Positions 27,072 to 40,669 of a DNA stretch of 64,000 nt are shown here, piece by piece (the stretch's first letter is position 1; every line of letters starts with the position of its first letter). The position numbers were made by a program, and so were the translations under genes. Source of the stretch: Neolewinella lacunae. Lineage in GTDB: Bacteria; Bacteroidota; Bacteroidia; Chitinophagales; Saprospiraceae. The notes beneath the pieces were generated by a model that saw nothing but the letters and a program-made list of their open reading frames with translations, did not search any database and was not told where the DNA came from. The DNA lies in assembly GCF_014349155.1 (NCBI RefSeq), contig NZ_JACSIT010000141.1:122919-186918 (forward strand). Direction: 5' to 3'.

Positions 27072-27072
27072 A

Positions 27073-27090
27073 GGGCGCGGCCGCAGGTGC
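27073..27090 (-). repeat. Dispersed 18-bp repeat after the epimerase gene
   Basis: Exact consensus on the minus strand, directly after the epimerase stop codon. It is followed by a C/G-tract hairpin that also accompanies the copy at 62419. Confidence 0.9.
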
Positions 27091-27118
27091 TCCCCCCCCA
27101 CCCCCCCGATGGGGGGAG
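27090..27118. terminator. C/G-tract hairpin between convergent genes
   Basis: CTCCCCCC (27090-27097) can pair with GGGGGGAG (27111-27118) over a 13-nt loop. It sits between the ends of the epimerase and the response-regulator genes, so it may end transcription from both sides. There is no clear U tract. Confidence 0.45.
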
Positions 27119-27159
27119 AATGGACGAAGAGCGAGGGATGACCCCCGCCAAAAACTGCT

Positions 27160-28209
27160 TTACACCAACAATCCGCGTAAGCCTTCCACCTCCTGAATAA
27201 CGAGTTTTTTGCCCTGGTTGGCTACCAAACCCTCGCGCTTAAAGTCGGAGAGGGCGCGGATGACGCTTTCCTTTGTGCTGCCCACCATTTGGGCGAGTTC
27301 TTCGCGCGATAGCTCGATGGGCTGGCCGGCGTACTTCTGGTGCAGGTCGCAAAGAACCAGCGCCGTGCGCCGCCGTACACTGTCGTAAGCCTGGTGAACG
27401 AGGCGTTCGCTGTGGGCCACCACCCGGCTGGCCATGAGGCGCATCAGGGCCTCGGTGATGTTGCGGTCGGTATTGAGCAGCTTGAGGAGGCTATCCGTGG
27501 CCAGCGCCTGCAGGGTCGCTCCGCTGGACGCCCCACGGGCAGTATAGTGAAAAGGCGCGCGTTCCAAGACGGAAGGGATGCCAAAAACCTCCCCTTCGCC
27601 CAGCTCCGCGATGATGTAATCCCGGCCATACTCGTGGGAGCGGCTGAGGTGAACGCGACCGCCACTAACCCGGTAGATGAAGTGTGGGTATTCGCCCTCG
27701 CGGACAATCGTCTGGCCCGCATCGATGAGCAGTGGCCGCCCCGTTTCCGCAAAGGCCTTTTCCAGGCGGGCAAAGCCTCCTTCGGGGTTGCTCAGGTGGG
27801 CAGTGGCCGCGCCGGAGGGGTCGGTACCGCGCAATTTGGCTTTTTTGAGCCGGGTGCGGATGACGCTGAGCAGCTCGTCTTTGTAGAAAGGCTTGGTGAT
27901 GTAGTCGTCCGCCCCCAGGTTCATCCCCCGGCGGATGTCGTCCTTTTCCGTGCGGGCGGTCAGGAAAATGAAGGGGATGCCGCTGGTGCGTTCGTTTTCG
28001 CTGAGCAGGTTGAGTACGCCGTAGCCATCCAGTTCGGGCATCATCACGTCGCAGAGAATCAGGTCGGGCGAGGCCTGGATGGCGGTTTTTACGCCCGCCA
28101 GCCCGTTGGGTTCGGCCAGGACGGTGTAGCCATAGAGTTCGAGGATTTCGGCCAGGTTTTCCCGGACTTCCTCGTTGTCTTCAATGATCAGAATGGTGGT
28201 GGTTTCCAT
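27160..28209 (-). CDS. Response regulator: receiver domain fused to CRP/FNR-type DNA-binding protein
   Basis: A 349-residue regulator. Residues about 5-120 form a receiver domain: IIEDNEEVRENLAEIL (acidic pair), DLILCDVMMPELDG (phospho-Asp), FIFLTARTEKDD (Thr/Ala switch) and ITKPFYKDELL (Lys). Residues about 145-260 are a cyclic-nucleotide-binding-like barrel (LLIDAGQTIVREGEYPHFIYRVSGGRVHLSRS, GEGEVFGIPSVLE). The C-terminal Crp HTH is ELSREELAQMVGSTKESVIRALSDFKREGLVANQGKKLVI. No N-terminal FNR cysteine cluster is seen. It lies 11 nt downstream of the FixL-like kinase gene. By motif and context it should activate the twin-dyad promoters of the cbb3 island. Confidence 0.93.
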   Translation of the reverse strand: METTTILIIEDNEEVRENLAEILELYGYTVLAEPNGLAGVKTAIQASPDLILCDVMMPELDGYGVLNLLSENERTSGIPFIFLTARTEKDDIRRGMNLGADDYITKPFYKDELLSVIRTRLKKAKLRGTDPSGAATAHLSNPEGGFARLEKAFAETGRPLLIDAGQTIVREGEYPHFIYRVSGGRVHLSRSHEYGRDYIIAELGEGEVFGIPSVLERAPFHYTARGASSGATLQALATDSLLKLLNTDRNITEALMRLMASRVVAHSERLVHQAYDSVRRRTALVLCDLHQKYAGQPIELSREELAQMVGSTKESVIRALSDFKREGLVANQGKKLVIQEVEGLRGLLV

Positions 28210-28220
28210 AGCGGTGGGGT

Positions 28221-29420
28221 TCAGATCTGCTCGGGGCCCAAGGGGATTAAGACGGTGAAGGCCGACCCTTTGCCCAAGGTACTGGTAAATTCGACGGTGC
28301 CTTCCAGTAATTTCACGTAGTGATCGACGATGTTGAGGCCCAGGCCAGTACCCTGCACATTTTCTACGTTGCGGGCCCGGAAAAAACGGTCGAAAAGGTG
28401 GACCTGGTCTTCGGCGGGAATGCCAATGCCCTGGTCTTGGACGGTAATAAAGCATTGTTCCTGCCGCCGACCGGTGGAAATGCGGATCTCCTGCCCGGGG
28501 GAAGAATACTTGGCAGCGTTGGAAATGAGGTTGACGAGGACGTGGCGCAGCAATTTCGGGTCGCTGACGATCAGCTTGGGTTCCTCGGCCAGCTCCAGGA
28601 TGATCCGCTGGGCGTCTTTCATTTGCCCTTCGCTGGACTCTACGCAGGTGGCCACCAGTGCGCGCAAATCGATCAGGCGGGGCAGCGCGGTGATTTCTCC
28701 CTGCTCCAGTTTGGAGAGGGAAAGAAAGTCGTTCAACACCTCGGTGAGTTGTAAGACGGCGTCCTTGATGCGGGTGACGTGTTTTTCGCGCTTGGGTTGT
28801 TCCGTTGTTTCCTTGTAGAGCTCGATCAGCTCGATGGAGCTTAGCACGGTGCTCAGGGGCGTTTTGAACTCGTGGCTGGCCATGCTCAGGAAGCGGCTCT
28901 TGAGTTCATTGAGTTCGCGCTCTTTGCTGAGGGCCTTTTGCAGTTCCCGCTCCCGTTCCCGGAGGGCGGCGGTGCGTTCTTCGACTTTGTTTTCCAGTTC
29001 CGTGTTGAGTTCCTCCACCCGGCGTTGGGCGCGTTTGAACTCCGAAAGGTCGTGAAGAATACCGGTGTAGATCGTCTGTCCGTCCAGATGGACTTCACTC
29101 ACGGCCAGGCGCAGGGGGAAAATCTCGCCGTCCTTGCGCCGGCCGATGACCTCCCGCCCGATGCCGATGATGTGTTTCTGGCCGGTGGCGTGGTAGCGGT
29201 GCAGGTAATCATCGTGGTGGGCGCGGTCGTGCTCACCCATTAGCATATTTACTTTTTGCCCCCGCAGTTCCTTGGCCGCGTATCCAAAAAGTTCGCAGGC
29301 CGCCTGGTTGACGTTCTCGATAACGCCTTGGGTGCTCATGGTGATGATGCCGTCGGTGGCCATTTCAAACAAGGCCCGGAGGCGGCGGCTGTCTTCCTCA
29401 CCCAGTTTATGCTCGGTCAT
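28221..29420 (-). CDS. FixL-like PAS sensor histidine kinase
   Basis: A 399-residue cytoplasmic kinase with one PAS domain and no membrane segment. The PAS core HRYHATGQKHIIGIGREVIGRRKDGEIFPLRLAVSE is strikingly like the heme PAS of rhizobial FixL. Histidines in EHDRAHHDDYLHRY sit where FixL has its proximal heme ligand. A coiled coil (RVEELNTELENKVEERTAALRERERELQKAL) leads to the H-box MASHEFKTPLSTVL, N-box LISNAAKYSS, and G boxes DQGIGIP and GTGLGLNIV. It probably senses O2 and phosphorylates the receiver-CRP protein encoded just downstream. Heme binding is inference. Confidence 0.92.
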   Translation of the reverse strand: MTEHKLGEEDSRRLRALFEMATDGIITMSTQGVIENVNQAACELFGYAAKELRGQKVNMLMGEHDRAHHDDYLHRYHATGQKHIIGIGREVIGRRKDGEIFPLRLAVSEVHLDGQTIYTGILHDLSEFKRAQRRVEELNTELENKVEERTAALRERERELQKALSKERELNELKSRFLSMASHEFKTPLSTVLSSIELIELYKETTEQPKREKHVTRIKDAVLQLTEVLNDFLSLSKLEQGEITALPRLIDLRALVATCVESSEGQMKDAQRIILELAEEPKLIVSDPKLLRHVLVNLISNAAKYSSPGQEIRISTGRRQEQCFITVQDQGIGIPAEDQVHLFDRFFRARNVENVQGTGLGLNIVDHYVKLLEGTVEFTSTLGKGSAFTVLIPLGPEQI

Positions 29421-29450
29421 CGGCGTCGGTTTAGCTTTCTACGGATGTGG

Positions 29451-29458
29451 TAAAGGTA
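29451..29458 (-). promoter_or_regulatory. Putative promoter of the FixL-like kinase gene (-7 element)
   Basis: TACCTTTA on the minus strand, 31 nt upstream of ATG 29420. It overlaps a perfect small palindrome, GGTAAG-GGGC-CTTACC (29455-29470), which could be an operator. Confidence 0.38.
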
Positions 29459-29588
29459 AGGGGCCTTACCGACAAAAAGTGCCCCTGGCAGTAACCAGAG
29501 GCACGAGAACTGTACTTACAATAAATATCCCCAGACCGATAAACTCTAAATTCTTAACGGGGGTGGACCTTGCACCTGTCCTTACCCG

Positions 29589-29606
29589 GCACCTGCGTCC
29601 GCGCCC
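29589..29606 (+). repeat. Dispersed 18-bp repeat upstream of the FixL-like gene
   Basis: GCACCTGCGTCCGCGCCC; a half copy (GCACCTGTCC) precedes it at 29572. Together with the copy at 27073 it brackets the two-gene regulatory unit, ends outward. Confidence 0.88.
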
Positions 29607-29657
29607 GGTAAGAAAACCAGGACGCTGGGCAATTAATGGGTGCGGAGTGTTCCGTTA

Positions 29658-29891
29658 TCAGGCCACCTGCTGGGTGCGGGTAGGTTTATTTTTCATTTTT
29701 ACGGCTTTTGCCTCAGCGGCGCCTACTGTGGGTTCGGGCAGGAAGCTCACGCCCAGCACGGCACTGAGAAAGAGCGGGAGGGCGAGGATGGCGACCAGGG
29801 GTTGACCGATAAAGAGGCCACCAATTACGCAGGCCATCATCAGGAAAAAGCGGATCAGGACGCTATCAAAGGAGCAGGCGAAAAAGCGCAT
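29658..29891 (-). CDS. Small membrane protein in the cbb3 island
   Basis: A 77-residue protein, MRFFACSFDSVLIRFFLMMACVIGG onward, with two hydrophobic segments (about residues 10-30 and 32-50) and a charged tail (EAKAVKMKNKPTRTQQVA). No family is recognised. It is supported as a real gene because its start lies 54 nt from a twin-dyad promoter identical in layout to those of hemN and ccoS. It could assist oxidase assembly or redox homeostasis; this is only context. Confidence 0.68.
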   Translation of the reverse strand: MRFFACSFDSVLIRFFLMMACVIGGLFIGQPLVAILALPLFLSAVLGVSFLPEPTVGAAEAKAVKMKNKPTRTQQVA

Positions 29892-29913
29892 GTGTTTGTG
29901 TTTTGTTGTGTCA

Positions 29914-29980
29914 CAAATTTCGGGCGCTCAGCCAGCGTGGGCACTGATGCAGGTCACGGGGTAAAATGATCTGTGTCACC
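29914..29980 (-). promoter_or_regulatory. Twin-dyad activator promoter of the small membrane protein gene
   Basis: Dyads TGA-N6-TCA lie at 29945-29956 and 29967-29978 (22 bp apart); the distal one reads GGTGACACAGATCATT on the minus strand. A 23-nt gap leads to GAAATTTG (29921 to 29914), a weak -7 element. The ATG is 54 nt from the proximal dyad. Confidence 0.7.
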
Positions 29981-29996
29981 CTCCGTGCTGTTCAGC

Positions 29997-30401
29997 TCAC
30001 ACGTAGTCTTCCAGCCGGATGGGCTCCTGATCGATCAGGCGGATCAGGTCCAGGGTCGTCACGATTCCCACCAGTTTGTCCTCCTCTAACACGGGCAAGG
30101 CGTGAAATTTATTGAGGGTAAACAGGTTGGCGGCGGTGCGCACGGTATCGGAGGGTTCCAGCTTGGCGACGTGGGCCGTCATGATATCGCTCACGGTGTT
30201 GAGGCCGCTGCCGGGGAAACTCAGCTTCAGGAAATCCGATTGGCTGAGAATGCCGGCCAAACGCCCCTCGGGGGTAAGCACCGGGAGGTGGTGTACTCCG
30301 TGCCGGACCAGTAGGTCGATGGCTACGGTGACGGGGGTATGAATAGTCACCGTGGCGAGGTCCGTCGTCATGATGGTAGCGATTTTTGTAAGGAGATTCA
30401 T
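29997..30401 (-). CDS. CBS-domain protein
   Basis: A 134-residue protein made of two CBS motifs. The first is IMTTDLATVTIHTPVTVAIDLLVRHGVHHLPVLTPEGRLAGILSQSDFLKL, the second IMTAHVAKLEPSDTVRTAANLFTLNKFHALPVLEEDKLVGIVTTLDLIRLI. Such pairs bind adenosyl ligands and act as energy sensors. It is at the downstream end of the cbb3 gene string, 52 nt after the TauE/SafE-like gene. CBS proteins often accompany cbb3 oxidase genes in Bacteroidota; the partner is unknown. Confidence 0.92.
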   Translation of the reverse strand: MNLLTKIATIMTTDLATVTIHTPVTVAIDLLVRHGVHHLPVLTPEGRLAGILSQSDFLKLSFPGSGLNTVSDIMTAHVAKLEPSDTVRTAANLFTLNKFHALPVLEEDKLVGIVTTLDLIRLIDQEPIRLEDYV

Positions 30402-30453
30402 AATTTATTGCTTTTAAGCTTAAGTATAATGGAAGTTAAGGTTGGAGCACCCA

Positions 30454-31137
30454 TCAATGGCACATTGGCGGGAAGGCCAGTTGCTGAAAGTTGTAGAAAT
30501 CGTTGGGCAGGTAGGCCGTCCAGCCCCGCCAAAGCAGGAGCAGCCCGGCCAGGCCAATGACGTAAGGCGTGAAGGCCGCCAGGCGGTCGGGGCCCAGGCG
30601 GACGATGCGGCGGCCCAGGAAGAGACTGCCCAGCAACAGGGGCAGCGTCCCGAGGCCAAAGGCCAGCATGAAGGCGGCACCCTTCGCCGGGCTGCCCGCG
30701 TTGGCCGCCGCAATGACGGCCAGGTAAACCAGGCCGCAGGGCAGCAAACCGTTGCACGCCCCCAGCACCAGCTTGGCCCGCAAACCTCCCTGCGCGGCAA
30801 AGGTGGCGGCCACCCCGCGCAGCCGCAGTTGGAAGCGGGCAAACCACGGCTGCCGCGCCAGCAGCTTACCGGGGTCCAGGCGCAGTACGGCAAAGGCCAC
30901 CAACAGCCCCCCCGAAACCAGGGCCACCGTGCTCTGGGCGTTCCAGAGTTGCATCCCCAGCCCGAGGCTGCCGAGCAATGCCCCCAGCAAGAGGTAAACC
31001 CCAATGCGCCCCGTCTGGTAGGCCAGGGCAGATCGCAGCCCGTTGCCCGCCCCCATGGCCAGCATCAGCGGGCCACACATGCCTACGCAGTGCAGGCTGC
31101 CGGTCAGGCCCAGGGCGAAGGCGATGCTCAGTTCCAC
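30454..31137 (-). CDS. Sulfite exporter TauE/SafE-family (DsbD/UreH-like) membrane protein
   Basis: A 227-residue membrane protein with about six hydrophobic segments. It begins MELSIAFALGLTGSLHCVGMCGPLMLAMG; the paired cysteines of HCVGMCGP and the second LGACNGLLPCGLVY motif are typical of the UreH/TauE-like proteins encoded with cbb3 oxidases. In that setting such proteins are thought to take part in copper handling or thiol chemistry during oxidase assembly. It starts 12 nt after ccoH and is certainly in the same transcript. Confidence 0.9.
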   Translation of the reverse strand: MELSIAFALGLTGSLHCVGMCGPLMLAMGAGNGLRSALAYQTGRIGVYLLLGALLGSLGLGMQLWNAQSTVALVSGGLLVAFAVLRLDPGKLLARQPWFARFQLRLRGVAATFAAQGGLRAKLVLGACNGLLPCGLVYLAVIAAANAGSPAKGAAFMLAFGLGTLPLLLGSLFLGRRIVRLGPDRLAAFTPYVIGLAGLLLLWRGWTAYLPNDFYNFQQLAFPPMCH

Positions 31138-31149
31138 GGTACCCGGAAT

Positions 31150-31587
31150 TTAAAGGGTGAGGTCCAGCTCGTCGTAGTACCCTACGCCAGCTTTTTTCCA
31201 TTCCACAATGACGCGGTAGCGGCCCAGGGGCAGTCCGGCAACGTTGAGGGGCATCCTGCCATCGGCCGCCACGGCCAGGGCCGCCCGCCGGTCGTTGGTC
31301 TTGCTGCTCGGCCGGTACAAGAGCACACTCCCTTCAATTGCTCCCGCCGGAGCGGCGGGGAATTGGAGGGCGGGGCCGTCGGCCGTATGGTCCAGGCGCA
31401 GGCCCTCCGTGAGTCCTCTGCTGTTCTGGCGGCGGTCAAATTCTTGTTGGTAGTTGATGTCGCGCGCGTAGTAATCTTCGTACACCAGGCTGTTGTCAAA
31501 GTTGCGGCTTTTCACCACCACGATTACGAGGGTGCTGACAAAAAAGGCGTAGAAAAGGAAGATGCCGTGGCCCCAGTGGAGTTTCAT
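31150..31587 (-). CDS. ccoH: FixH/CcoH-family oxidase assembly protein
   Basis: A 145-residue protein with one N-terminal membrane helix (WGHGIFLFYAFFVSTLVIVVVKS) and an extracytoplasmic beta-rich domain ending LPLGRYRVIVEWKKAGVGYYDELDLTL. NFDNSLVYEDYYARDINYQQEFDRRQN right after the helix is characteristic of Bacteroidota FixH. It aids stable assembly of cbb3 oxidase. One nucleotide separates it from ccoG upstream. Confidence 0.93.
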   Translation of the reverse strand: MKLHWGHGIFLFYAFFVSTLVIVVVKSRNFDNSLVYEDYYARDINYQQEFDRRQNSRGLTEGLRLDHTADGPALQFPAAPAGAIEGSVLLYRPSSKTNDRRAALAVAADGRMPLNVAGLPLGRYRVIVEWKKAGVGYYDELDLTL

Positions 31588-31588
31588 G

Positions 31589-33184
31589 TCATTTGTTTTT
31601 GTGGGGATGTACGAATGTGGTGTAGAGGTGCTCCACCTCCTTGCCCTCTACCGTCACGCTGATCTCTACCTGCCCGTTAAAGGCGGGCCCGGGGTCGGCG
31701 GGGAGGTCCACGAAAAGTGCCCCTTCGGTGATTTTTCCGGGCTGGGCGGCGGGGGCCGTGCCTACGAAGCGGACTTTTGCGCCCGGCATTTTCACCACGC
31801 TGAAGTCCAGCGGCAGTTCGTCGCCGGTTTTGTTGACAATCTGGTAGCTGTACAGGTTGTTGTAGCTGCCGTCGGCGTTCTCCTGGTACAGCAGGCCAGG
31901 GGTGCGGAGCAGCAGCACGTCGAGGCCATCGCGGCCACCGAGCAAGACGATGTTCAGGGCGATGAGGGCCAGCAGTACGCCCGAATAGGCCATCACCCGG
32001 GGGGTCCAGATCCGGCGTTGCTGCCGCGCCACGCCGCTTTCGCTGTCGTAGCGGATCAGGCCGCGGGGTCGCTCAATTTTGTCCATCACCTCGTCGCAGG
32101 CGTCGATGCAGGCCGTGCAGTTGATGCACTCCAGCTGGATGCCGTTGCGGATGTCAATGCCCGTCGGGCACACCTGCACGCAGAGGCCGCAGTCGATGCA
32201 GTCGCCCTTGCGTACGGGTTCGGTGTCCAGCTGCAAAACATCGGCAGCCGTATAGTTTTGGGTGGGCGCGGCCGCAGGTGCCGGGGTGGTGGATGCGGAG
32301 CGATGACCGTCCCGCTCCAGGGCGGCTTCCATGCGGTGCAGGATCTGATCGCTGCAGCTTTCGCGGCCCTCCCGGCAGTCGGCACAGTCCGTACAACTGC
32401 TCTTTTTAGGTTGCCCCTTGCGGATTTTCCCCCGGGGCTCCCCGCGCTCGTAGTCGTAGATTACATTGATGCTGTCGTCATCGAGCAATACCCCCTGCAA
32501 GCGGCCGTAAGGGCAAATGGCAATGCACACCTGCTCCCGCATATTCGCAAACACGAAGTAGAACACGCCGATGAACACCACGATGGCCAGGAAGCCCAGC
32601 GGCGCATCCAGGGGAGATTGCCGGACCGTCGCCAAAACCGCATCCGTACCGATGATGTAGGCCAGGAAAGTGTGGGCAATCACGGCGGAAATGAGGAGGA
32701 AGAGCCCTTGCTTGAGCACCCTCTTGCGGATTTTCTCCGCACTCCAGGGGGCCTGGGCCAAGCGCCGCTGGGCGTTGGCATCGCCTTCCACCCAGTACTC
32801 AATTTTCCGGAAGACCATTTCCATGAAGATGGTTTGCGGACAAACCCACCCGCAAAAGATCCGCCCGAAAACGACGGTAAACAGCGCGATAAAGACCACT
32901 CCGGTGATCATCAGAATGGCAAAGAGGTGAAAATCCTGGGGCGAAAAGCTGAGCCCGAAAAGGATGAAGCGGCGCTCAAGTACATTGAGCAGTACCAGCG
33001 GTGCACCGCCTACGCGCAGCCAGGGCAAGCCAAACAAGATGGCCAGCAGCACAAAGCTGAGGTAGGTACGCCAACGGTAATACCGCCCCCTGGGCTGCTT
33101 GGGGAATACCCAGCGGCGCTTTCCTTCGGCATCAACCGTGCCGATGCTGTCCCTGAAACTCTCCTTTTGGCCACCGGTGCCCAT
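31589..33184 (-). CDS. ccoG: cbb3 oxidase accessory protein CcoG (RdxA/FixG), with Cys-containing insertion
   Basis: A 531-residue membrane iron-sulfur protein implicated in copper reduction during cbb3 assembly. Several hydrophobic segments precede the motifs FCGWVCPQTIFME and CICPYGRLQGVLLDDDSINVIYDYERGEPRGK. The two 4Fe-4S sites are CIDCGLCVQVCPTGIDIRNG and CINCTACIDACDEVMD. The C-terminus is an Ig-like FixG domain. Between RGEPRGK and the first ferredoxin motif lies an extra stretch of about 65 residues containing CTDCADCREGRESC and a repeat-encoded APAAAP linker (residues 302-307). I do not recall this in usual CcoG. One nucleotide separates it from ccoP. Confidence 0.94.
   Translation of the reverse strand: MGTGGQKESFRDSIGTVDAEGKRRWVFPKQPRGRYYRWRTYLSFVLLAILFGLPWLRVGGAPLVLLNVLERRFILFGLSFSPQDFHLFAILMITGVVFIALFTVVFGRIFCGWVCPQTIFMEMVFRKIEYWVEGDANAQRRLAQAPWSAEKIRKRVLKQGLFLLISAVIAHTFLAYIIGTDAVLATVRQSPLDAPLGFLAIVVFIGVFYFVFANMREQVCIAICPYGRLQGVLLDDDSINVIYDYERGEPRGKIRKGQPKKSSCTDCADCREGRESCSDQILHRMEAALERDGHRSASTTPAPAAAPTQNYTAADVLQLDTEPVRKGDCIDCGLCVQVCPTGIDIRNGIQLECINCTACIDACDEVMDKIERPRGLIRYDSESGVARQQRRIWTPRVMAYSGVLLALIALNIVLLGGRDGLDVLLLRTPGLLYQENADGSYNNLYSYQIVNKTGDELPLDFSVVKMPGAKVRFVGTAPAAQPGKITEGALFVDLPADPGPAFNGQVEISVTVEGKEVEHLYTTFVHPHKNK
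32264..32281 (-). repeat. Dispersed 18-bp repeat inside ccoG
   Basis: Exact consensus on the coding strand, in frame as APAAAP within the insertion before the ferredoxin-like motifs. Confidence 0.9.
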
Positions 33185-33185
33185 G

Positions 33186-34085
33186 TTACTTGCTTAAAGG
33201 TTCTGTAATTTCCTCCGCGTATTCCACGCCCTCCGGAGCCTTGGCATTGGGGGGAGAAGTTCCGCCGATGCTTTTGATGAAGCTGGCCAGTTCCTGCATG
33301 TCACGCGGACGCAATTCGCTCTTCCAGGCAATCATACCTTTTTCGGGGACTCCGTACTTGATGGTCTTGAAGACCTCCCCGACGCTGCCGCCGTGGAGCC
33401 AGAACTTATCCGTCAGGTTGGGGCCAATACCCCCCTCTCCCAACTGCCCGTGGCAAACGGCACACTTCGCAGAAAACAAGGTGCGTCCTTTCTCGATGGC
33501 CTCGTTTTCCACCAACAGCGGCACGTTGGTCTCATCAATGGCATCCTCCTGGGTCGCCAGGTAGGCTTTTACTTCGGCGGCGGCATTTTCCATCTCGTAG
33601 ACGTAGCTTTCGTGTTGCAGGTTGCCGTAGTCCGAAAAGTGGACAAACCAGATGTACACGGGGGCAAAGGCCATGGTCAGGTACAACACCCCTTTCCACC
33701 AGGGTGGCAGGTTGTTGTCCAGTTCCTTGATGCCGTCGTAGTTGTGGGAGAGCATAATTTCTTCTTCCGCTTCCAGCGGCACCCCGCCCTTCATGCGGTC
33801 GTAGAGGCGCTTCCACCAGGGTTCCGTCATGGCAGCGGGCAGGGGGATGCCGACCTTTTGCAATACTTCCGGGTGGTATTGCTCCAGCATCCGCAGGCGT
33901 TGCATGCCCATCAGGGTAAAGCTCAGGTTAATGACGGCTCCCATCCCGGCCAGAAAAACCACCAGCATCAAGACGAGCAGCAGTTGCTCGAGTACGCTCA
34001 TTCCGGAGAACAAGCCTCCGGGGGCCACCTCCGCAACCGGCGCGGTGGCTTGCAACAACAGAGAATGATAAATTGAGGAATTCAC
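33186..34085 (-). CDS. ccoP: cbb3-type cytochrome c oxidase subunit III (single-heme CcoP)
   Basis: A 299-residue subunit with an N-terminal membrane helix (VLEQLLLVLMLVVFLAGMGAV), a cytoplasmic-like loop with HNYDGIKELDNNLPPWWKGVLYLTMAFAPVYIWF (the CcoP core), and a periplasmic heme c domain with CAVCHGQLGEGGIGPNLTD and later KGMIAWKSEL. Only one CxxCH is present, whereas proteobacterial CcoP usually has two. Its ATG overlaps the ccoQ stop (ATGA at 34082-34085). Confidence 0.95.
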   Translation of the reverse strand: MNSSIYHSLLLQATAPVAEVAPGGLFSGMSVLEQLLLVLMLVVFLAGMGAVINLSFTLMGMQRLRMLEQYHPEVLQKVGIPLPAAMTEPWWKRLYDRMKGGVPLEAEEEIMLSHNYDGIKELDNNLPPWWKGVLYLTMAFAPVYIWFVHFSDYGNLQHESYVYEMENAAAEVKAYLATQEDAIDETNVPLLVENEAIEKGRTLFSAKCAVCHGQLGEGGIGPNLTDKFWLHGGSVGEVFKTIKYGVPEKGMIAWKSELRPRDMQELASFIKSIGGTSPPNAKAPEGVEYAEEITEPLSK

Positions 34086-34270
34086 GCTGCATCGTTTTTA
34101 TCAGTGGTAGAATAGCTGTCTTGCAGGGGTTGCTGCTCCACTTCCGCGTAGCTTTCGCGCCCCCGGCCCAGGACCATGAGCAGTACGAGGGAGAAGACGG
34201 CGAAAAAAGTGAGCAGGGCCATGATGGCGAGCCAGTTGATGTCGGCGCCGGCCAATAAGTACTTTGCCAT
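34082..34270 (-). CDS. ccoQ: cbb3-type oxidase small subunit CcoQ-like
   Basis: A 62-residue protein with one hydrophobic helix, INWLAIMALLTFFAVFSLVLLMVLGRGRESY, followed by an acidic tail. Size, single helix and position between ccoNO and ccoP identify it as CcoQ, which stabilises the complex. It starts 12 nt after ccoNO and overlaps ccoP by 4 nt. Confidence 0.85.
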   Translation of the reverse strand: MAKYLLAGADINWLAIMALLTFFAVFSLVLLMVLGRGRESYAEVEQQPLQDSYSTTDKNDAA

Positions 34271-34282
34271 TTTCGGGTGGTT

Positions 34283-36451
34283 TTATTTTTTGCTGGGGGT
34301 TACGGCCTCCGCCTTGATGTCGGTTCCGAGTCGTTGGAGGTAAGCAATGAGCGCCACCACCTGCCGTTCTTCCAGTTCGGGGTCTTCAACGCCCTGTTCG
34401 CGCAGGCTCGTAGCAATTGCGGCGGCCTGGGCGTTGAGGTCATCGATGGCCACTTCGGCGTAGCCTTCGGGGTAGGGCGTACCCAAACTTTGAAGGACCC
34501 GGATTTTCGCCGCCAGGTAACGGGTATCCGTTTTGCGCTTCAACATCCAGGCGTAGGCGGGCATGATGCTGCCGGGGCTCGTGGAGTTGGGGTCTTCCAT
34601 GTGCCGGTAGTGCCAGATGTCGAGGTACTTGCCGCCCAGGCGGTGAACGTCCGGCCCCGTCCGCTTACTTCCCCAGAGGTGCGGACGGTCGTAGATGAAT
34701 TCACCCGATAGCGAGTACTGCCCGTAGCGCTCCGTTTCCGAGCGGAAGGGGCGGATCATCTGGCTGTGGCAGTTGTTGCAGCCGTTGGCAATGTAAATGT
34801 CGCGGCCTTCCAATTCAAGCGGGCGGTACGGGTTGACGGAGGCAATGGTTGGCACGTTCTCATCCACTACGACCATCGGGAAAATCTCTGCCAGGCCGCC
34901 GATGAGGATGACGACGGTAGAACCAACCAGCAGCTGCACGGGCCGCCGCTCAATCCAGCGGTGCCAGTATTCACCCTTGTGTCCTGCGGGGCTCGCCGCC
35001 AGGGGGGGAGCACTCGCGGGCTCGTCGGCCAGCAATTCGCCCTGCTTAACCGTCTTAATGAGGTTGTACACCATAATGAAAACGCCCACTACGTAGATCG
35101 TCCCCCCCAGGGCCCGGAGCATGTACATCGGCATAATGGCGTTAACCGTTTCCAGGAAGTTGCCGTACTGCAGCAGGCCATCGGGCGTAAACTGCTTCCA
35201 CATGGAACTCTGCGTCCAGCCCGCCCAGTAAAGCGGAACGGCGTAGAAAAGCGTACCCAGCGTAGCAATCCAGAAGTGGACGTTGGCCAGTTTGGTGCTG
35301 AACAAGGTGGTGCGGAAAATCCGGGGAATGATGTAGTACAGGACCCCGAAAGTGAGCATGCCGTTCCAGCCCAGAGTGCCAATGTGGACGTGCCCTACTG
35401 TCCAGTCCGTGTAGTGGCTGATGGCGTTGACGCTCTTGATGGAGAGCAGCGGGCCTTCCAGCGTAGCCATACCGTAGGCCGTGATGGCCACTACCATCAT
35501 TTTCAGTACGGGGTCTTCGCGGACCTTATCCCAGGCCCCGCGCAGGGTCAGCAGGCCGTTCAGCATCCCCCCCCAGCTCGGGGCAATGAGCATCAAACTG
35601 AAGACCATCCCCAGGCTCTGCGCCCAGTCCGGCAAACTCGTGTACAACAAGTGGTGGGGGCCCGCCCAGATGTAGATGAAGATCAGGGCCCAGAAGTGGA
35701 TGATCGACAGGCGGTAGCTGAATACCGGCCGGTTGGCCGCTTTGGGCAGGAAGTAGTACATCAGGCCCAGGTAAGGCGTAGTAAGGAAAAACGCCACGGC
35801 ATTGTGCCCATACCACCACTGCACCAGCGCATCCTGCACCCCGGCAAAAACGGGATAACTCTTGAGCAAACCAACGGGAAGCTCCAGGCTATTGCCCACG
35901 TGCAGTACCGTCACCGTCACCCAGGTGGCAATGTAAAACCAGATCGCTACGTAGAGGTGGCGCTCCCGCCGCTGCAGGATGGTCATGAAGAGGTTGATGC
36001 CGAATACAATCCACACCAGGGCAATGGCAATGTCAATCGGCCACTCCAGCTCCGCGTATTCCTTACTGGTGGTAATCCCCAACGGCAGCGTAATGGCCGC
36101 CGCCAGAATGATGGCCTGCCAGCCGTAGTAGTGGATGTTGCTCAGCGCGCGCGAATACATCCGCGTTTTCAGCAAGCGCTGGAGCGAGTAGTACACCCCC
36201 ATGTAAATTCCGTTGCCTACAAAAGCAAAAATGACGGCATTGGTATGCAGCGGCCGAATCCGGCCAAAGGTGGTCTCGGCGGTAAAATTGAGCACGGGCC
36301 ACACCATTTGCAGGGCGGCCAACAAACCTACAATCATACCAATCAAACCCCAAAAAGCAGTGGCGTACGCAAATTTCTTGACGATCTCGTTGTCGTACGC
36401 AAAGTTTTCCAGTGCCATATCGGTACTGGTGGCAGAAGCTGTTTTAGTCAT
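34283..36451 (-). CDS. ccoNO: Fused cbb3 oxidase subunits I and II (CcoN-CcoO)
   Basis: A 722-residue fusion. Residues about 1-480 are the heme-copper subunit I: the metal-site histidines appear in YGHNAVAFFLTTPYLG, GPHHLLYTSLPDWAQ and DWTVGHVHIGTLGWNG. Residues about 500-722 are the membrane-anchored cytochrome c subunit II, with CNNCHSQMIRPFRSE and later PGSIMPAYAWML. The enzyme reduces O2 to water with high affinity and pumps protons. Fusion of N and O fixes 1:1 stoichiometry and is known in Bacteroidota. It overlaps ccoS by 8 nt. Confidence 0.96.
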   Translation of the reverse strand: MTKTASATSTDMALENFAYDNEIVKKFAYATAFWGLIGMIVGLLAALQMVWPVLNFTAETTFGRIRPLHTNAVIFAFVGNGIYMGVYYSLQRLLKTRMYSRALSNIHYYGWQAIILAAAITLPLGITTSKEYAELEWPIDIAIALVWIVFGINLFMTILQRRERHLYVAIWFYIATWVTVTVLHVGNSLELPVGLLKSYPVFAGVQDALVQWWYGHNAVAFFLTTPYLGLMYYFLPKAANRPVFSYRLSIIHFWALIFIYIWAGPHHLLYTSLPDWAQSLGMVFSLMLIAPSWGGMLNGLLTLRGAWDKVREDPVLKMMVVAITAYGMATLEGPLLSIKSVNAISHYTDWTVGHVHIGTLGWNGMLTFGVLYYIIPRIFRTTLFSTKLANVHFWIATLGTLFYAVPLYWAGWTQSSMWKQFTPDGLLQYGNFLETVNAIMPMYMLRALGGTIYVVGVFIMVYNLIKTVKQGELLADEPASAPPLAASPAGHKGEYWHRWIERRPVQLLVGSTVVILIGGLAEIFPMVVVDENVPTIASVNPYRPLELEGRDIYIANGCNNCHSQMIRPFRSETERYGQYSLSGEFIYDRPHLWGSKRTGPDVHRLGGKYLDIWHYRHMEDPNSTSPGSIMPAYAWMLKRKTDTRYLAAKIRVLQSLGTPYPEGYAEVAIDDLNAQAAAIATSLREQGVEDPELEERQVVALIAYLQRLGTDIKAEAVTPSKK

Positions 36452-36602
36452 TGTCAGAAGATTTGGGTTCCTCGAAGAGGATTCTAATGGATGGCGTTAC
36501 CTCATCATCGTACTGGCCGGTGCCTACCGCCCAGAAGAAGGCGAGCAGGAAGCCAACGGCAATCAGCAGACTAAGCAGGATGAGCAGGAGGATTACTTTC
36601 AT
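36444..36602 (-). CDS. ccoS: cbb3 oxidase maturation protein CcoS
   Basis: A 52-residue protein, MKVILLLILLSLLIAVGFLLAFFWAVGTGQYDDEVTPSIRILFEE. The single helix followed by FxWAxxxGQYDD...P is the CcoS signature; it is needed for cofactor insertion into cbb3 oxidase. ATG 36602 is preferred over an upstream ATG at 36653 because a twin-dyad promoter lies 52 nt before it. It leads directly into ccoNO. Confidence 0.93.
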   Translation of the reverse strand: MKVILLLILLSLLIAVGFLLAFFWAVGTGQYDDEVTPSIRILFEEPKSSDND

Positions 36603-36622
36603 AGCGGAGTTCCTTAACGGCT

Positions 36623-36689
36623 GCAAGGTCCGGCGACCGGCCAGCCTGGGCACTGAAGCGCATCATCGGCGGGAATGATTTGTATCATT
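36623..36689 (-). promoter_or_regulatory. Twin-dyad activator promoter of ccoS-ccoNO
   Basis: Dyads TGA-N6-TCA at 36654-36665 and 36676-36687, 22 bp apart; the distal one is AATGATACAAATCATT on the minus strand. After 23 nt comes GACCTTGC (36630 to 36623) as a weak -7 element. The region also aligns base by base over about 50 bp with the one at 29914-29980. Confidence 0.75.
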
Positions 36690-39138
36690 TTCTGGCCGGG
36701 TCTACCCTCGCACCGGGCCGGTGAATGCCGAGGTCCACCAGCCAGGCTCCGACAGTGGCCACCACCACTATCGTTACGGAACTGAGTGGCATCAAAATGG
36801 CCGCCACCACCGGGCTGAGCGTGCCCGTTACCGCGTAATACAGGCCCACCGCGTTGTAGCAAAAGGCCAGGGCGAAGGTGAGGGCCAACACCCAGCGCAG
36901 GCGGACCGCCGCTGCCAGCACCTCGGGCAGGAACGGCAATTGTTCGCCCTGCACAATCCCGTCACAGGCGGGGTTAAAGCGGGACGCATCGTCATTCACG
37001 GCCAGCCCGACGCTGGCCGCAGCGAGCGCGCCGGCATCATTCAGGCCATCGCCCACCATCAATACCCGGTGGGGGCCGGCCTGCAGCTCATTGATCCGGG
37101 AGCGCTTATCGAAAGGACTTTGCTGAAATAAGGTCTGCCCGGGTTCGAGGTAAGCGCTCCAGGTATTGCGCACCGGTGCCTGATCCCCCGAAAGCAGCCA
37201 GGTTGCCCCCCGCTTCCCCAGTTGCCGCAGCATTTCGCCCACTCCCGGGCGCAAATTCACCGCCGCAGGCACCATTTGAAAGTACGGGTTGCCGTCCACC
37301 GTTGCATTCGTCCCCCCTTCCAGGGCCCCTGTGCCGCAGAAAGCCGGTGTACCGATGCGGAACTCCCGACCCTCGTGCTGCAAGTACAGGCCTTGCCCTA
37401 CGCTTTCGGTAACCCCGGCGGTAAACACCTCCGGAAGTTTACCCTGGGAAGTTTCCAGCGCCGCCCGGATGGCCCGGCTTTTGGGGTGGTCCGACTGTCT
37501 CGCCATCGCCAGAAAGACGCCGTCAAAAAAAGCGACGCGCTCCTGGAGGAAGTGCAGTTGCTCCGTCAACCCCTCTCCCGTCAGGGTACCCGTTTTGTCG
37601 AATACAAAGGTGTCCGTATTGGCCAGTTCCCGGATCACGGCGGGGCCCCGGAAATAGTAACCCCGCGCCGCCAGCAGGCGCTGCAAGGTACCGTAGGCGA
37701 AGGGAGCCGCCAGCGCCAGGGCACAGGGGCAGGCAATGATCAGCACCGCCGTCGCCGCCCGGTAGGCCGTGGCCACGTCGCGGGAGTACCAGTACACCAG
37801 CGTGGCCGCCGAGAGCAATAACAAGAAAACGGTGAAGACCCGGATGAGGCCCTCGGGCGGCGCAACCTCGCCCAACTCCTGCCGCTTGCCCTCCCGCAGC
37901 CACAGTTGCAAAAGGTAGCTTTGCTCGGCGGGCTTACTCACCACCATGCGCAGGGCCGTATCCGTAGCGCGCCCGCCGGCGAATACCTCTGCATGCGGGG
38001 CTACCGACTGCGGAACAGCCTCGCCGGTGACGAAACTGTAGTCGATCGCGGCGGGCACCTGGCCGGATAAGTAGCCGTCGGCGGGAATCAACTGCCCGGG
38101 CCGCACGAGTAATACATCCCCCGCCACCACGTCTTCACTGGCCACCGCCTCTAGCTCACCCGCCGCATTTTCCCGGTAAGCCGCAATCGGGAAGTAGTCG
38201 TGGTAGTTGCGGTCAAAGTTGAGCCGGGCGAAGGTATAAGACTGGAACCAGCGTCCGATCAGCAGGAAAAAGACCAGTCCGGCCAGGCTATCCAGGTAGC
38301 CTGGGCCACTGCCCGACACCAGTTCGTAAACGGAGCGGCCAAACAAGGCCACCATCCCGATGGCAATCGGCACGTCAATCGTCATCCGCCGGGCAGTCAC
38401 GGCATACCAGGCCGCCGAGAAAAAGCCCCGCCCGGCGTACAACAACACTGGCAAACTCAGGCCCAGCATCAGGTAACCCATGGCCGCCGCCATCCACTCC
38501 GCACCCGCATCGCTGCCCAGTGCCGAGGGCAATACCTCCGATAAGCCAAAGTATTCCGGGAAGCTCAGCAGCATGATGTTGCCAAAACAGAAGCCCGCCA
38601 CGCCAATGCGGTAAATCAGGGCCCGGTTTTCGGGCTGCTGCGTGGCCTCCGCCTGGGTTCGGAGGTGGGGCGGGTACCCGATGCGGTCGAGTTGCTCCGC
38701 CACCTGCCGCAGCGTCACCTGCCGCGGATCAAACACGATGGCCGCGTTGCGCCGCGAAAAATCTACGCTGCACGCCCGCACGCCCGGCAACAACTGCGGT
38801 AGCCGCTCCAGTAACCAGACGCAGGAGGCACAGTGAATGGCTGGCAACTCCAGGTCAATGTGGCAGCGCTCCGCATCCCGGTAGCGCAGCACCCTCTCCG
38901 CCAGCTTGGGCACGTCGAGCCAGGCGTAGTCCCGCCCGTCGTCCACCTTCCTGCGGCCCGCAGCCTCCTCCATTCCGTAGAAGTCGAGGAGATTGTTATC
39001 TTTTAAAATGGTGTAGACCGTAGCACAGCCCGCACAGCAAAATACCCGCCCGTTTTCTTCGGTTTGGTCTTCCCGGCAAACCTCTCCGCAGTGGGTACAG
39101 TGGGTGGTGGCCAAGGTTTGGTCAATGAGGGTTCCCAT
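36685..39138 (-). CDS. ccoI: Copper-transporting P-type ATPase for cbb3 oxidase (CcoI/FixI)
   Basis: An 817-residue P1B-type ATPase. The N-terminus has a cysteine-rich CTHCGEVC...FCCAGC segment and a heavy-metal domain with HCASCVWLLERLP. The transmembrane CPC motif is CPCALALAAPFAYG, the phosphorylation site DKTGTLTGEG, and the hinge GDGLNDAGAL. It supplies Cu to the cbb3 catalytic site. It starts 2 nt after hemN and ends 82 nt before ccoS. Its last codons overlap the distal half of the twin-dyad promoter of ccoS. Confidence 0.95.
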   Translation of the reverse strand: MGTLIDQTLATTHCTHCGEVCREDQTEENGRVFCCAGCATVYTILKDNNLLDFYGMEEAAGRRKVDDGRDYAWLDVPKLAERVLRYRDAERCHIDLELPAIHCASCVWLLERLPQLLPGVRACSVDFSRRNAAIVFDPRQVTLRQVAEQLDRIGYPPHLRTQAEATQQPENRALIYRIGVAGFCFGNIMLLSFPEYFGLSEVLPSALGSDAGAEWMAAAMGYLMLGLSLPVLLYAGRGFFSAAWYAVTARRMTIDVPIAIGMVALFGRSVYELVSGSGPGYLDSLAGLVFFLLIGRWFQSYTFARLNFDRNYHDYFPIAAYRENAAGELEAVASEDVVAGDVLLVRPGQLIPADGYLSGQVPAAIDYSFVTGEAVPQSVAPHAEVFAGGRATDTALRMVVSKPAEQSYLLQLWLREGKRQELGEVAPPEGLIRVFTVFLLLLSAATLVYWYSRDVATAYRAATAVLIIACPCALALAAPFAYGTLQRLLAARGYYFRGPAVIRELANTDTFVFDKTGTLTGEGLTEQLHFLQERVAFFDGVFLAMARQSDHPKSRAIRAALETSQGKLPEVFTAGVTESVGQGLYLQHEGREFRIGTPAFCGTGALEGGTNATVDGNPYFQMVPAAVNLRPGVGEMLRQLGKRGATWLLSGDQAPVRNTWSAYLEPGQTLFQQSPFDKRSRINELQAGPHRVLMVGDGLNDAGALAAASVGLAVNDDASRFNPACDGIVQGEQLPFLPEVLAAAVRLRWVLALTFALAFCYNAVGLYYAVTGTLSPVVAAILMPLSSVTIVVVATVGAWLVDLGIHRPGARVDPARK

Positions 39139-39140
39139 GG

Positions 39141-40490
39141 TCAGATGGCTTGGCTGAAGGTTTTTGCGCTGGGCTGCTGCCGCCAGTAATGGTCGTCCAG
39201 CGGCAGACAGATGTTACGCAGGAAGGGCTTGCCCGCCGCAGTTACCTCCACCCGGTAGGGCGAGCGCGTGATGATGCCGTCGGCGGCCATGTCGTTCCAC
39301 TGGTCCACCGCCCGGCCCAGGGCATCGCAGCGCAGGGCTTCGGGCCGCCAGTCCGTTTTTCCCTGGCACATGAGGTTGAGGATGTGGCGGCGCACCACCT
39401 GGTCTTCCTGGCTCAGGCGGTGCCCCTTCACGATGGGCAGGCGTTTTTCCTCCAGCACGATGCGGGAGTAGACGTCGAATTTTTTCTCGTTCTGCACGTA
39501 GGTGTCCCAGCTGTCCCCGATGGAGGAGCAGCCGAGCGCAATCGTCACCGGCGAGTCGGCCGTGGTATAGCCCATGAAGTTGCGGTGCATCCGTCCCGTA
39601 GCCGCCGCGCGGTAGAGGTCGTCGGTGGGCAGGGCAAAATGGTCGAGGCCGATGTCCCGGTAGCCCGAGGCTTCGAGCAGGTCGCGGCCCGTAGCGTAGA
39701 GTTGCCATTTTTCGGTTCCGCCGGGCACGTCCGCCTCGTCGTAGGCCCGCTGTCCTTTGCTCACCCAGGGCACGTGGGCGTAGCCGTAAAACGCGATGCG
39801 GTCGGGCCGGAGTTCCTGGATTTTCACGGCCGTTCGGATGATGTCATTCTCCGTCTGCCGGGGCAAGCCGTAGATGATGTCGAAATTGATGGAAGCGTAG
39901 CCGGCGGCCCGGGCGGCGTCGACGGTCCGCTCCACGTCCGCCTCCGTTTGCCGGCGGTTGATCAGGCGCATGATGGCCGGGTTGAAGTCTTGCACGCCGA
40001 TGCTGATGCGGTTAAAACCACGGGAGGCCAACACTTTCAGGTGCTCGGGGGTGGTGCTGTTGGGGTGGGCCTCAAAGGCGAAGCAGTGGTCGTCAGCCAC
40101 CTCGGCGTGGGCCAAAATGCCGTCCACCAGGCGGGCCAATGACGCCGGAGAAAAAAACGTGGGCGTCCCTCCCCCCAGGTGCAGCTCTTTTAGGCGCGGA
40201 CGCAGGTGCAGGGATTGGACGTAGAGCGACCATTCCGCCAGAACGGCATCAATGTAGGGATCCTCAACCGAGTGCCGTTTGGTGATGTGTTTGTTGCAAC
40301 CGCAATAGGTACAGAGTTCTTCGCAAAAGGGCAGGTGGATGTACAGGCTCAGCTCCCGGTGTTCGGCCAATTGCCCGTTGAGGCGCTCCAGCCAATGCTC
40401 GGGCGTAGGGGCTTCCTTTTCCCAGTAGGGGACCGTAGGATAGCTGGTATAGCGGGGGACGGGAAGATTGTACTTATCGATGAGCGTCAC
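39141..40490 (-). CDS. hemN: Oxygen-independent coproporphyrinogen III oxidase
   Basis: HemN (449 residues) is a radical-SAM enzyme that makes protoporphyrinogen IX without O2. The SAM cluster motif is FCEELCTYCGCN (C-x3-C-x2-C), preceded by VPRYTSYPTVPYW. GGGTPTFFS, FEAHPNSTTPEHL and GVQDFNPAIMRLINRRQ follow. I chose GTG 40490 (MTLIDKYNLPVPRYTSYP), which fits the family N-terminus and places the start 53 nt from the twin-dyad promoter; an ATG at 40577 would lie inside an operator. A repeat copy encodes HLRPRL at about residues 95-100. First gene of the cbb3 string. Confidence 0.95.
   Translation of the reverse strand: MTLIDKYNLPVPRYTSYPTVPYWEKEAPTPEHWLERLNGQLAEHRELSLYIHLPFCEELCTYCGCNKHITKRHSVEDPYIDAVLAEWSLYVQSLHLRPRLKELHLGGGTPTFFSPASLARLVDGILAHAEVADDHCFAFEAHPNSTTPEHLKVLASRGFNRISIGVQDFNPAIMRLINRRQTEADVERTVDAARAAGYASINFDIIYGLPRQTENDIIRTAVKIQELRPDRIAFYGYAHVPWVSKGQRAYDEADVPGGTEKWQLYATGRDLLEASGYRDIGLDHFALPTDDLYRAAATGRMHRNFMGYTTADSPVTIALGCSSIGDSWDTYVQNEKKFDVYSRIVLEEKRLPIVKGHRLSQEDQVVRRHILNLMCQGKTDWRPEALRCDALGRAVDQWNDMAADGIITRSPYRVEVTAAGKPFLRNICLPLDDHYWRQQPSAKTFSQAI
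40192..40209 (-). repeat. Dispersed 18-bp repeat inside hemN
   Basis: Minus-strand GCACCTGCGTCCGCGCCT; in frame as HLRPRL, just before KELHLGGGTPTF. Confidence 0.85.
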
Positions 40491-40511
40491 GGGTCCGTTT
40501 TCGTTTGGCCC

Positions 40512-40578
40512 CAAAGGTCCCGCCCCGGCCAAAATCAAACGCTGATCCACGTCTACCCCCGCAATGATATATGTCATT
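40512..40578 (-). promoter_or_regulatory. Twin-dyad activator promoter of hemN
   Basis: A proximal dyad TGA-N6-TCT (40543-40554, one mismatch) and distal perfect dyad AATGA-N6-TCATT (40563-40578) are 22 bp apart. After 23 nt comes GACCTTTG (40519 to 40512), then GTG at 40490, 53 nt from the proximal dyad. Confidence 0.72.
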
Positions 40579-40644
40579 CCGGGCCAAAGCCCTTGCCAGG
40601 CGCCTGCCAACATCCCTTGCTGTTCCCCTGGGGCGACGGGCCTG

Positions 40645-40662
40645 GCACCTGCGGCCGCGCCC
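40645..40662 (+). repeat. Dispersed 18-bp repeat between ligase and hemN
   Basis: Exact GCACCTGCGGCCGCGCCC, 7 nt beyond the ligase stop codon. Confidence 0.9.
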
Positions 40663-40669
40663 TACTCCC

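Follow-up and report, generated by a model that had tools for sequence, protein, structure and literature searches.

A twin-dyad promoter layout and a receiver-CRP fusion point to a probable low-oxygen regulon in Neolewinella lacunae and other Bacteroidota

At class II promoters of the CRP/FNR superfamily, the activator is centred at -41.5. Among the rhizobial members of this superfamily, FixK2 and FnrN/FixK have a consensus site that starts with TTGA, and FixK-type regulons include oxidases, hemN, and universal stress and Hsp20 proteins, as stated in the portions of the two reports used here (PMC4999443, PMC9104804). In Bacteroidota, the -7 element of promoters is numbered from T-12 to G-5, with the start of transcription 4-5 nt further on, according to the excerpt of the source on which we rely (PMC6847099). 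Here, we describe three promoters of a cbb3 oxidase and heme locus in Neolewinella lacunae (Saprospiraceae; contig NZ_JACSIT010000141.1, positions 122,919 to 186,918; this whole stretch of 64,000 nucleotides is called the window in the following), together with two nearby genes for a PAS histidine kinase and for a fusion of a receiver domain with a CRP-type protein, REC-CRP. With a probability of roughly 0.8, the three sites serve as operators in a low-oxygen regulon, in which pairs of dyads would be bound by the REC-CRP activator once this is phosphorylated by the kinase. It is from geometry, conservation, gene context, co-occurrence and homology that we infer binding, activation and phosphotransfer as well as the sensing of oxygen by heme.

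All three promoters lie on the minus strand. An earlier note on this DNA had described two TGA-N6-TCA dyads 22 bp apart at each of them and a -7 box 23 nt past the proximal dyad, and both features were confirmed when we re-read the window sequence. The single mismatch it had reported in one dyad of the hemN promoter was found in the proximal dyad of site C, AGACGTGGATCA, and its distances from the proximal dyad to the start codon were likewise reproduced, with 54 nt at site A (ATG 29891), 52 nt at site B (ccoS, ATG 36602) and 53 nt at site C (hemN, GTG 40490). The elements are as follows, where G193 and G116 denote two genomes of the same genus:

29967..29978, minus strand: distal dyad of site A, TGACACAGATCA; predicted centre -63.5; kept in G193 and G116
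29945..29956, minus strand: proximal dyad of site A, TGACCTGCATCA; predicted centre -41.5; kept in G193, one mismatch in G116
29914..29921, minus strand: -7 box of site A, GAAATTTG; GAAATTTG in G193, GATATTTG in G116
36676..36687, minus strand: distal dyad of site B, TGATACAAATCA
36654..36665, minus strand: proximal dyad of site B, TGATGCGCTTCA
36623..36630, minus strand: -7 box of site B, GACCTTGC; the same in G193 and G116
40565..40576, minus strand: distal dyad of site C, TGACATATATCA
40543..40554, minus strand: proximal dyad of site C, with one mismatch
40512..40519, minus strand: -7 box of site C, GACCTTTG

At site B, the TGA stop codon of ccoI (36685-36687) doubles as the first half-site of the distal dyad, so that gene end and operator overlap. 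A dyad palindrome with TGA and TCA half-sites, as in CRP/FNR-superfamily operators, is present at the window sites. With up to one mismatch, the window holds exactly three twin dyads, namely sites A, B and C, whereas 100 dinucleotide shuffles of it yielded 0.02 on average and none of them reached three.

The layout is phylum-wide, a point that goes beyond the earlier note. In 80 loci around CcoNO, the fused subunits I and II of cbb3 oxidase, which were taken from named genomes without regard to the motif, TGA-N6-TCA pairs occur 52 times at a spacing of 22 bp and four times at 23 bp, compared with a mean of 0.62 for each spacing from 12 to 80 bp other than 22. These 52 pairs are spread over 32 loci, and nine control motifs gave zero or one pair each at the same spacing. 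The corresponding histogram from family regions (46 pairs at 22 bp) was set aside in favour of the CcoNO loci as circular, because 14 of the 17 regions had been picked around twin matches. Although 83% of the CcoNO-locus DNA lies inside open reading frames (ORFs) of at least 150 aa, 48 of the 52 twins lie outside them, and with the family regions added this holds for 93 of 98 twin sites. Across 248 genomes of the family, a sample drawn evenly, we counted 1355 exact twins versus 38 matches of a reversed control pattern, with at least one twin in 203 genomes. Taken together, the shuffles, the spacing histogram, the nine control motifs and the reversed control rule out a chance origin of the layout. 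In 13 loci titled as belonging to other phyla (Calditrichota, Ignavibacteria and relatives, Neomarinimicrobiota and Verrucomicrobia), an exact twin was found only in L046.

Within 70 nt on either side of the CcoNO-locus twins, we found 22 copies of TAnnTTTG, of which 19 are at offset 23. When these loci are combined with those from the own genome and the family, which were partly fetched by motif, 89 distinct twin sites result; at offset 23, 28 of them carry TAnnTTTG and 40 carry TAnnTTT (per-offset means 0.59 and 1.20), and 52 have TTTG at the matching offset 27. A profile of 47 oriented twin sites revealed no conserved -33 TTG. Since TAnnTTT at 23 nt is also seen in eight of the 11 pairs that are spaced by 23 bp, the proximal dyad appears to be the fixed one. 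The published numbering of the -7 element and the fixed 23 nt together place the dyad centres at a predicted -41.5 and -63.5; with the lack of a conserved -33 TTG, this supports the class II geometry of a CRP/FNR-type activator that had been proposed for the window promoters. In all, 130 twin sites provided 520 half-sites, whose consensus reads A-TGA-T/C, with a T before TGA in 18% of cases versus a background of 31%. The twin half-sites thus have the core in common with FNR/FixK operators and lack the flanks of these (TTGA-N6-TCAA).

The genome of N. lacunae itself (5.8 Mb in 154 contigs) contains four exact twins, two of which are sites A and B and the other two of which lie on contigs C90 and C22 as described below, and 15 at up to one mismatch, including site C; the reversed control gave zero and three. 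A search for twins with a -7 box at up to three mismatches returned nine matches versus two in the control: sites A, B and C, three sites that precede Usp proteins (PF00582), one that precedes an FAD-dependent oxidoreductase, and one each on contigs C90 and C86. On C90, an exact twin on the minus strand stands 23 nt before TAATTTTA. The oxidoreductase matches only Pyr_redox_2 in Pfam and has a degenerate distal dyad; we take it to be similar to sulfide:quinone reductase. Single dyads with TAnnTTTG at up to one mismatch (21 versus 13 in the control) are too noisy for use. As a separate observation, G000:C22:125994-126049 (L001 1501-1556) carries a series of three dyads at 22-bp intervals, the third of them with one mismatch. 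This triple-dyad promoter has its -7 box, TAATTTTG, at 24 nt and lies upstream of a metallo-beta-lactamase/rhodanese gene, whose product is presumably persulfide-dioxygenase-like.

Promoters A, B and C are all kept in G193 and G116. In an alignment made by eye and anchored on the dyads, the invariant positions over the three species amount to 32 of 36 in the dyad cores, nine of 36 inside the dyads, three of 30 between the dyads and 14 of 69 in the 23-nt spacers. The -7 boxes are invariant at seven (A), eight (B) and three (C) of eight positions, with a seeming one-base shift at site C of G193, and at A and B their first base is G in place of T in all three genomes.

Two genes next to the oxidase locus stand out as candidates for the regulatory proteins:

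27160..28209, minus strand: REC-CRP fusion regulator, 349 aa, best candidate binder; Pfam Response_reg, cNMP_binding, HTH_Crp_2
28221..29420, minus strand: PAS histidine kinase; Pfam PAS, HisKA, HATPase_c; PAS domain nearest the heme-PAS of FixL

Judged from its sequence and its distribution, the REC-CRP fusion is the best candidate for the protein that binds the twin dyads in this genome. It combines a cNMP-binding fold with a Crp-type helix-turn-helix (PF00027, PF13545 and PF00325, all above cut-off), matches a solved CRP/FNR protein with an E-value of 4.8e-17, and carries a receiver domain (PF00072, E 1.3e-26) with the stretch LILCDVMMPELDG, whose aspartate we take to be the phospho-acceptor. 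The 349 residues include just two cysteines, one in the receiver and one in the CRP part, and no FNR-type cysteine cluster; by our reading, GEVFGIPSVLERAPFHYTA has no R-S pair at the place where E. coli CRP has one (the cAMP cassette). Four CRP-type proteins of the genome score above the Pfam cut-off, and a recognition helix with the E..R pair is found only in REC-CRP and in a protein encoded on contig C22. The other three were rejected as binders, two for the lack of this pair and the C22 protein for its failure in the co-occurrence test below. Neither cAMP-CRP nor a classical FNR is favoured, given the missing FNR-type cysteine set and a half-site that does not start with TTGA.

For the co-occurrence test, REC-CRP was called present where the best match to the window protein had an E-value of at most 1e-38, a threshold of our own, which was the case in 175 of the 248 family genomes; the search scored eight candidates per genome, and some negatives may be misses. 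At least two twins occur in 157 of the 175 genomes with REC-CRP versus 17 of the 73 without it (Fisher p 1e-24). In eight genomes, the best E-value lies between 1e-38 and 1e-58 and might reflect receiver-only matches; with these moved to the absent side, the counts become 151/167 versus 23/81, so the conclusion and the odds stand. Where CcoNO is absent, the association persists (46/52 versus 8/59), and where REC-CRP is present, CcoNO adds nothing (odds ratio 1.2). The association also holds irrespective of the C22-type CRP: where this is present, at least two twins are found in 132/146 genomes with REC-CRP versus 10/41 without (odds ratio 29.2), and where it is absent, in 25/29 versus 7/32 (odds ratio 22.3). 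To reduce the effect of kinship, we also compared genomes within the 32 genera that include both kinds; the carriers of REC-CRP have more twins in 26, equal numbers in four and fewer in two (p 3e-6), or 27, three and two after dropping the eight unclear genomes. The receiver-CRP protein, already suggested as the activator, is thus supported by a co-occurrence that survives controls for the oxidase, the other CRP and the genus. Within the genus, G006 has REC-CRP and four twins elsewhere in its genome, yet no CcoNO match and no twin at up to one mismatch in the 20 kb around the REC-CRP gene; in G242, REC-CRP and twins are both absent.

Between the end of the kinase gene and the start of REC-CRP lie 11 bp. 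The PAS region of the kinase has B. japonicum FixL as its best match among solved structures (E 2.8e-29), and in the alignment with this protein it keeps the heme-PAS stretch H-D-x-Y-x-x-R ... HIIGIGR, in which we assume the heme ligand (the proximal His) and the O2-responsive residues (the Arg of the IIGIGR loop) to lie; this His and this Arg are identical in the two proteins. By sequence, the partner kinase is therefore FixL-like, which the earlier note had not recognized. More widely, 51 of 59 REC-CRP ORFs have a PAS kinase as a neighbour, a count in which three genomes appear twice, and 35 of these 51 kinases have the FixL-type motif in its strict (20) or a relaxed form.

These elements suggest the following mechanism. 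With two helical turns between them, two dimers of a CRP/FNR-superfamily activator would occupy the twin dyads from the same side of the DNA. Of these, the proximal one at -41.5 would substitute for the -33 contact and recruit RNA polymerase to the weak Bacteroidota -7 box in class II manner, while the distal dimer at -63.5 might make a class I contact or bind cooperatively. In this genome, the activator would be the REC-CRP encoded at 27160-28209, presumably phosphorylated by the adjoining kinase, whose heme-PAS resembles that of the oxygen sensor FixL; the two proteins would need a single step for the task that FixL, FixJ and FixK share in rhizobia. On a more tentative note, we consider it possible, if somewhat doubtful, that phosphorylation drives a dimer of dimers that reads the exact 22-bp pair, with the receivers of neighbouring REC-CRP dimers pairing and thereby turning the kinase signal into cooperative occupancy. 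If so, a two-component switch would have been built onto CRP geometry, with a promoter spacing matched to the receiver-receiver interface.

A number of observations weigh against assigning the twin dyads to REC-CRP and oxygen. In the family, an exact twin is missing from eight genomes that carry REC-CRP, and at least two twins occur in 17 genomes where REC-CRP was not detected. Where CcoNO is present, the effect of REC-CRP is weaker (111/123 versus 9/14), and CcoNO remains linked to twins in the genomes that lack REC-CRP (9/14 versus 8/59, odds ratio 11.5). Despite this remaining effect, we do not favour the idea that twins are a mere by-product of cbb3, because the association is strongest without CcoNO and because G006 has twins and REC-CRP without a CcoNO match. 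Among the 49 genomes behind the CcoNO loci, which were picked partly for having twins, G248, G254, G255 and G283 have three to seven twins and no fusion-length REC-CRP match, and the flavobacteria G285, G287 and G288 have REC-CRP and no twin. When 30 REC-CRP loci were taken independently of the motif (L133-L162), only two had an exact twin within about 1.5 kb, and 16 of the 51 adjoining kinases lack the FixL-type motif as searched. Finally, there are promoters with a single dyad at the same 23 nt, above all in Flavobacteriaceae, which means that the pair is not obligatory.

These single-dyad promoters came to light around CcoNO-locus dyads without a recognizable partner 22 bp upstream, which have TAnnTTTG at 23 nt in 16 cases versus 1.48 per other offset. 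In total, 20 cases have a partner with at least two mismatches: nine in eight flavobacterial loci (L094, L095, L100, L111, L119, L120, L124 and L125, assigned to Flavobacteriaceae from their titles or genera) and 11 in other taxa, among them L086 with a partner dyad at 23 bp. For seven of these eight flavobacterial loci, the cbb3 genes follow directly behind the single dyad. No exact twin was found in the six Flavobacteriaceae genomes searched, and L064, which is titled Flavobacteriaceae, has two one-mismatch twins in its locus. This distribution suggests that the -41.5 dyad is the general one and that the -63.5 dyad depends on the lineage or the gene.

Of the alternative explanations, one fares best, and we regard its chances as evenly balanced: specificity for the sites may belong to a wider CRP clade with the helix GTA-x-E-x-x-IR, in which the receiver is an optional input and proteins without it use the same sites in some species. 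CRPs with this helix type and no receiver are indeed encoded in the twin-bearing cbb3 loci L055, L085, L096, L108 and L122; the genomes of L055 and L122 have four and seven twins and no REC-CRP that we could find, and those of L085 and L096 have REC-CRP elsewhere. This again speaks against a strict link to REC-CRP, and suggests that the receiver is probably an input module rather than the source of DNA specificity. For N. lacunae, such a clade is compatible with REC-CRP as the binder, which is the only CRP-type protein with an E-x-x-IR helix in this genome.

It is less likely that the sensor reads a signal other than oxygen, such as NO, redox state or carbon supply. The 16 kinases without the FixL-type motif would fit such a signal, and outside the family many neighbours are without the motif, so oxygen may not be the signal everywhere; moreover, a Saprospiraceae CRP homologue is placed near the carbon-sensing MalR by phylogeny in the part of PMC8510549 considered here. 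Against this stand FixL as the best solved relative of the window kinase and targets that match FixK-type regulons (hemN, cco and universal stress genes), to the extent that these are covered in the excerpts cited (PMC4999443, PMC9104804).

Still more improbable are operators for another CRP/FNR-type protein, with which REC-CRP merely travels along. The C22 protein (C22:117404, helix VSREAISR) would be the obvious example, being encoded about 8 kb from the triple-dyad promoter of the rhodanese/metallo-beta-lactamase gene and keeping E and R in its helix, which we take to be those of the DNA-reading helices of the superfamily. Yet the presence of such a protein is not associated with twins when REC-CRP is kept constant (odds ratios 1.5 and 1.2 with REC-CRP present and absent), REC-CRP matters with or without it, and the E..R pair is missing from the remaining two CRP-type proteins. 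The C22 protein (G000:C22:117404-118048, L129) has a CC pair (TFSCCMND) and lies beside an ORF that resembles a SulP transporter by eye; possibly, it is a thiol-based regulator of sulfur genes. That the sites bind a repressor or are passive repeats is very improbable, since the fixed 23 nt, the lack of a conserved -33 element and the degenerate -7 box in the genus fit activation instead, the last as the earlier note had argued from the poor box, and since a search of 27000-41000 found no tandem repeat and the dyads have no conserved sequence between them.

As to the regulon, 99 promoters combine a twin with a good -7 box, and 87 of these have an ORF of at least 60 aa behind them, which we assigned by phmmer to seeds from the window or the own genome. 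These are ccoNO (13), ccoI (10), the small membrane protein of the window (eight, its own included), UspA (seven), hemN (five), CBS proteins (four), ccoS (three), PAS kinases (three), ccoG (one) and others (33); the selection of many loci by CcoNO inflates the cco numbers. The small membrane protein family is a recurrent target of twin promoters across genera, and four of its promoters (L033, L199, L201 and L202) have GATATTTG as their -7 box. In the window, the genes of the locus are:

29658..29891, minus strand: small membrane protein gene, target of site A; no Pfam or NCBIfam match
29997..30401, minus strand: CBS-pair protein; relatives elsewhere have their own twin promoter (4/87 promoters)
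30454..31137, minus strand: DsbD_2-family membrane protein
31150..31587, minus strand: ccoH/fixH; Pfam FixH
31589..33184, minus strand: ccoG; TIGR02745
33186..34085, minus strand: ccoP; Pfam FixP_N, Cytochrome_CBB3
34283..36451, minus strand: ccoNO fusion, cbb3 oxidase subunits I/II; NCBIfam PRK14485, 1230 bits
36444..36602, minus strand: ccoS, first gene behind site B; named from its position and small membrane-protein form
36685..39138, minus strand: heavy-metal P-type ATPase, called ccoI; TIGR01494 above cut-off, heavy-metal subfamily models below theirs
39141..40490, minus strand: hemN, start taken as GTG 40490; TIGR00538, 390.6 bits

The name ccoI rests on the place of the gene, behind hemN and before ccoS. 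Unlike the open fusion of the window, the joint frame that CcoN and CcoO match in several family genomes is interrupted by one in-frame stop codon (for example G064:C29:24000-26123 and G157:C5:11031-13151).

If REC-CRP acts as proposed, a large part of the Bacteroidota would possess a regulon that responds to oxygen, complete with sensor, effector and a promoter code that can be read from the DNA. The code is strict enough for target genes to be predicted from sequence, and it raises the question of why many lineages have two dyads at exactly 22 bp and others, such as the Flavobacteriaceae, have one. Among the open-access papers listed as literal matches, none appeared, by its title and the beginning of its abstract, to describe REC-CRP, twin dyads or cbb3 regulation in Bacteroidota. 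A FixL-like kinase combined with an effector that fuses receiver and CRP, and with a strict promoter code of twin dyads, appears to be new as a variant of known systems.

With the TTTG/TAnnTTTG promoters of Bacteroidota, as presented in the cited portion of PMC6847099, the promoters described here share the -7 element and its numbering; unlike them, they have no conserved -33 element, with the proximal dyad in its place, and the three in the window have G for T as the first base of the -7 box. Like the class II promoters of proteobacterial FNR and CRP, they would have the activator centred at -41.5 if the prediction holds, and they differ from them in the second dyad at exactly 22 bp as the prevailing form, in the Bacteroidota-type -7 element and, as regards FNR, in a REC-CRP without its cysteine cluster. 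The rhizobial FixL-FixJ-FixK(2) system, finally, resembles the one proposed here in its heme-PAS kinase, which is FixL-like by sequence, in its CRP/FNR-type effector and TGA-N6-TCA core, and in its targets, the cbb3 oxidase and hemN. It differs in that here each promoter has two dyads, a Bacteroidota -7 box and the half-site A-TGA-T/C instead of TTGA, and in that receiver and CRP-type effector form one protein in a single ORF (separate FixJ and FixK proteins were not searched for by name), so that neither FixJ nor a step of fixK transcription would be needed. It looks as if the rhizobial cascade had been collapsed into two proteins.

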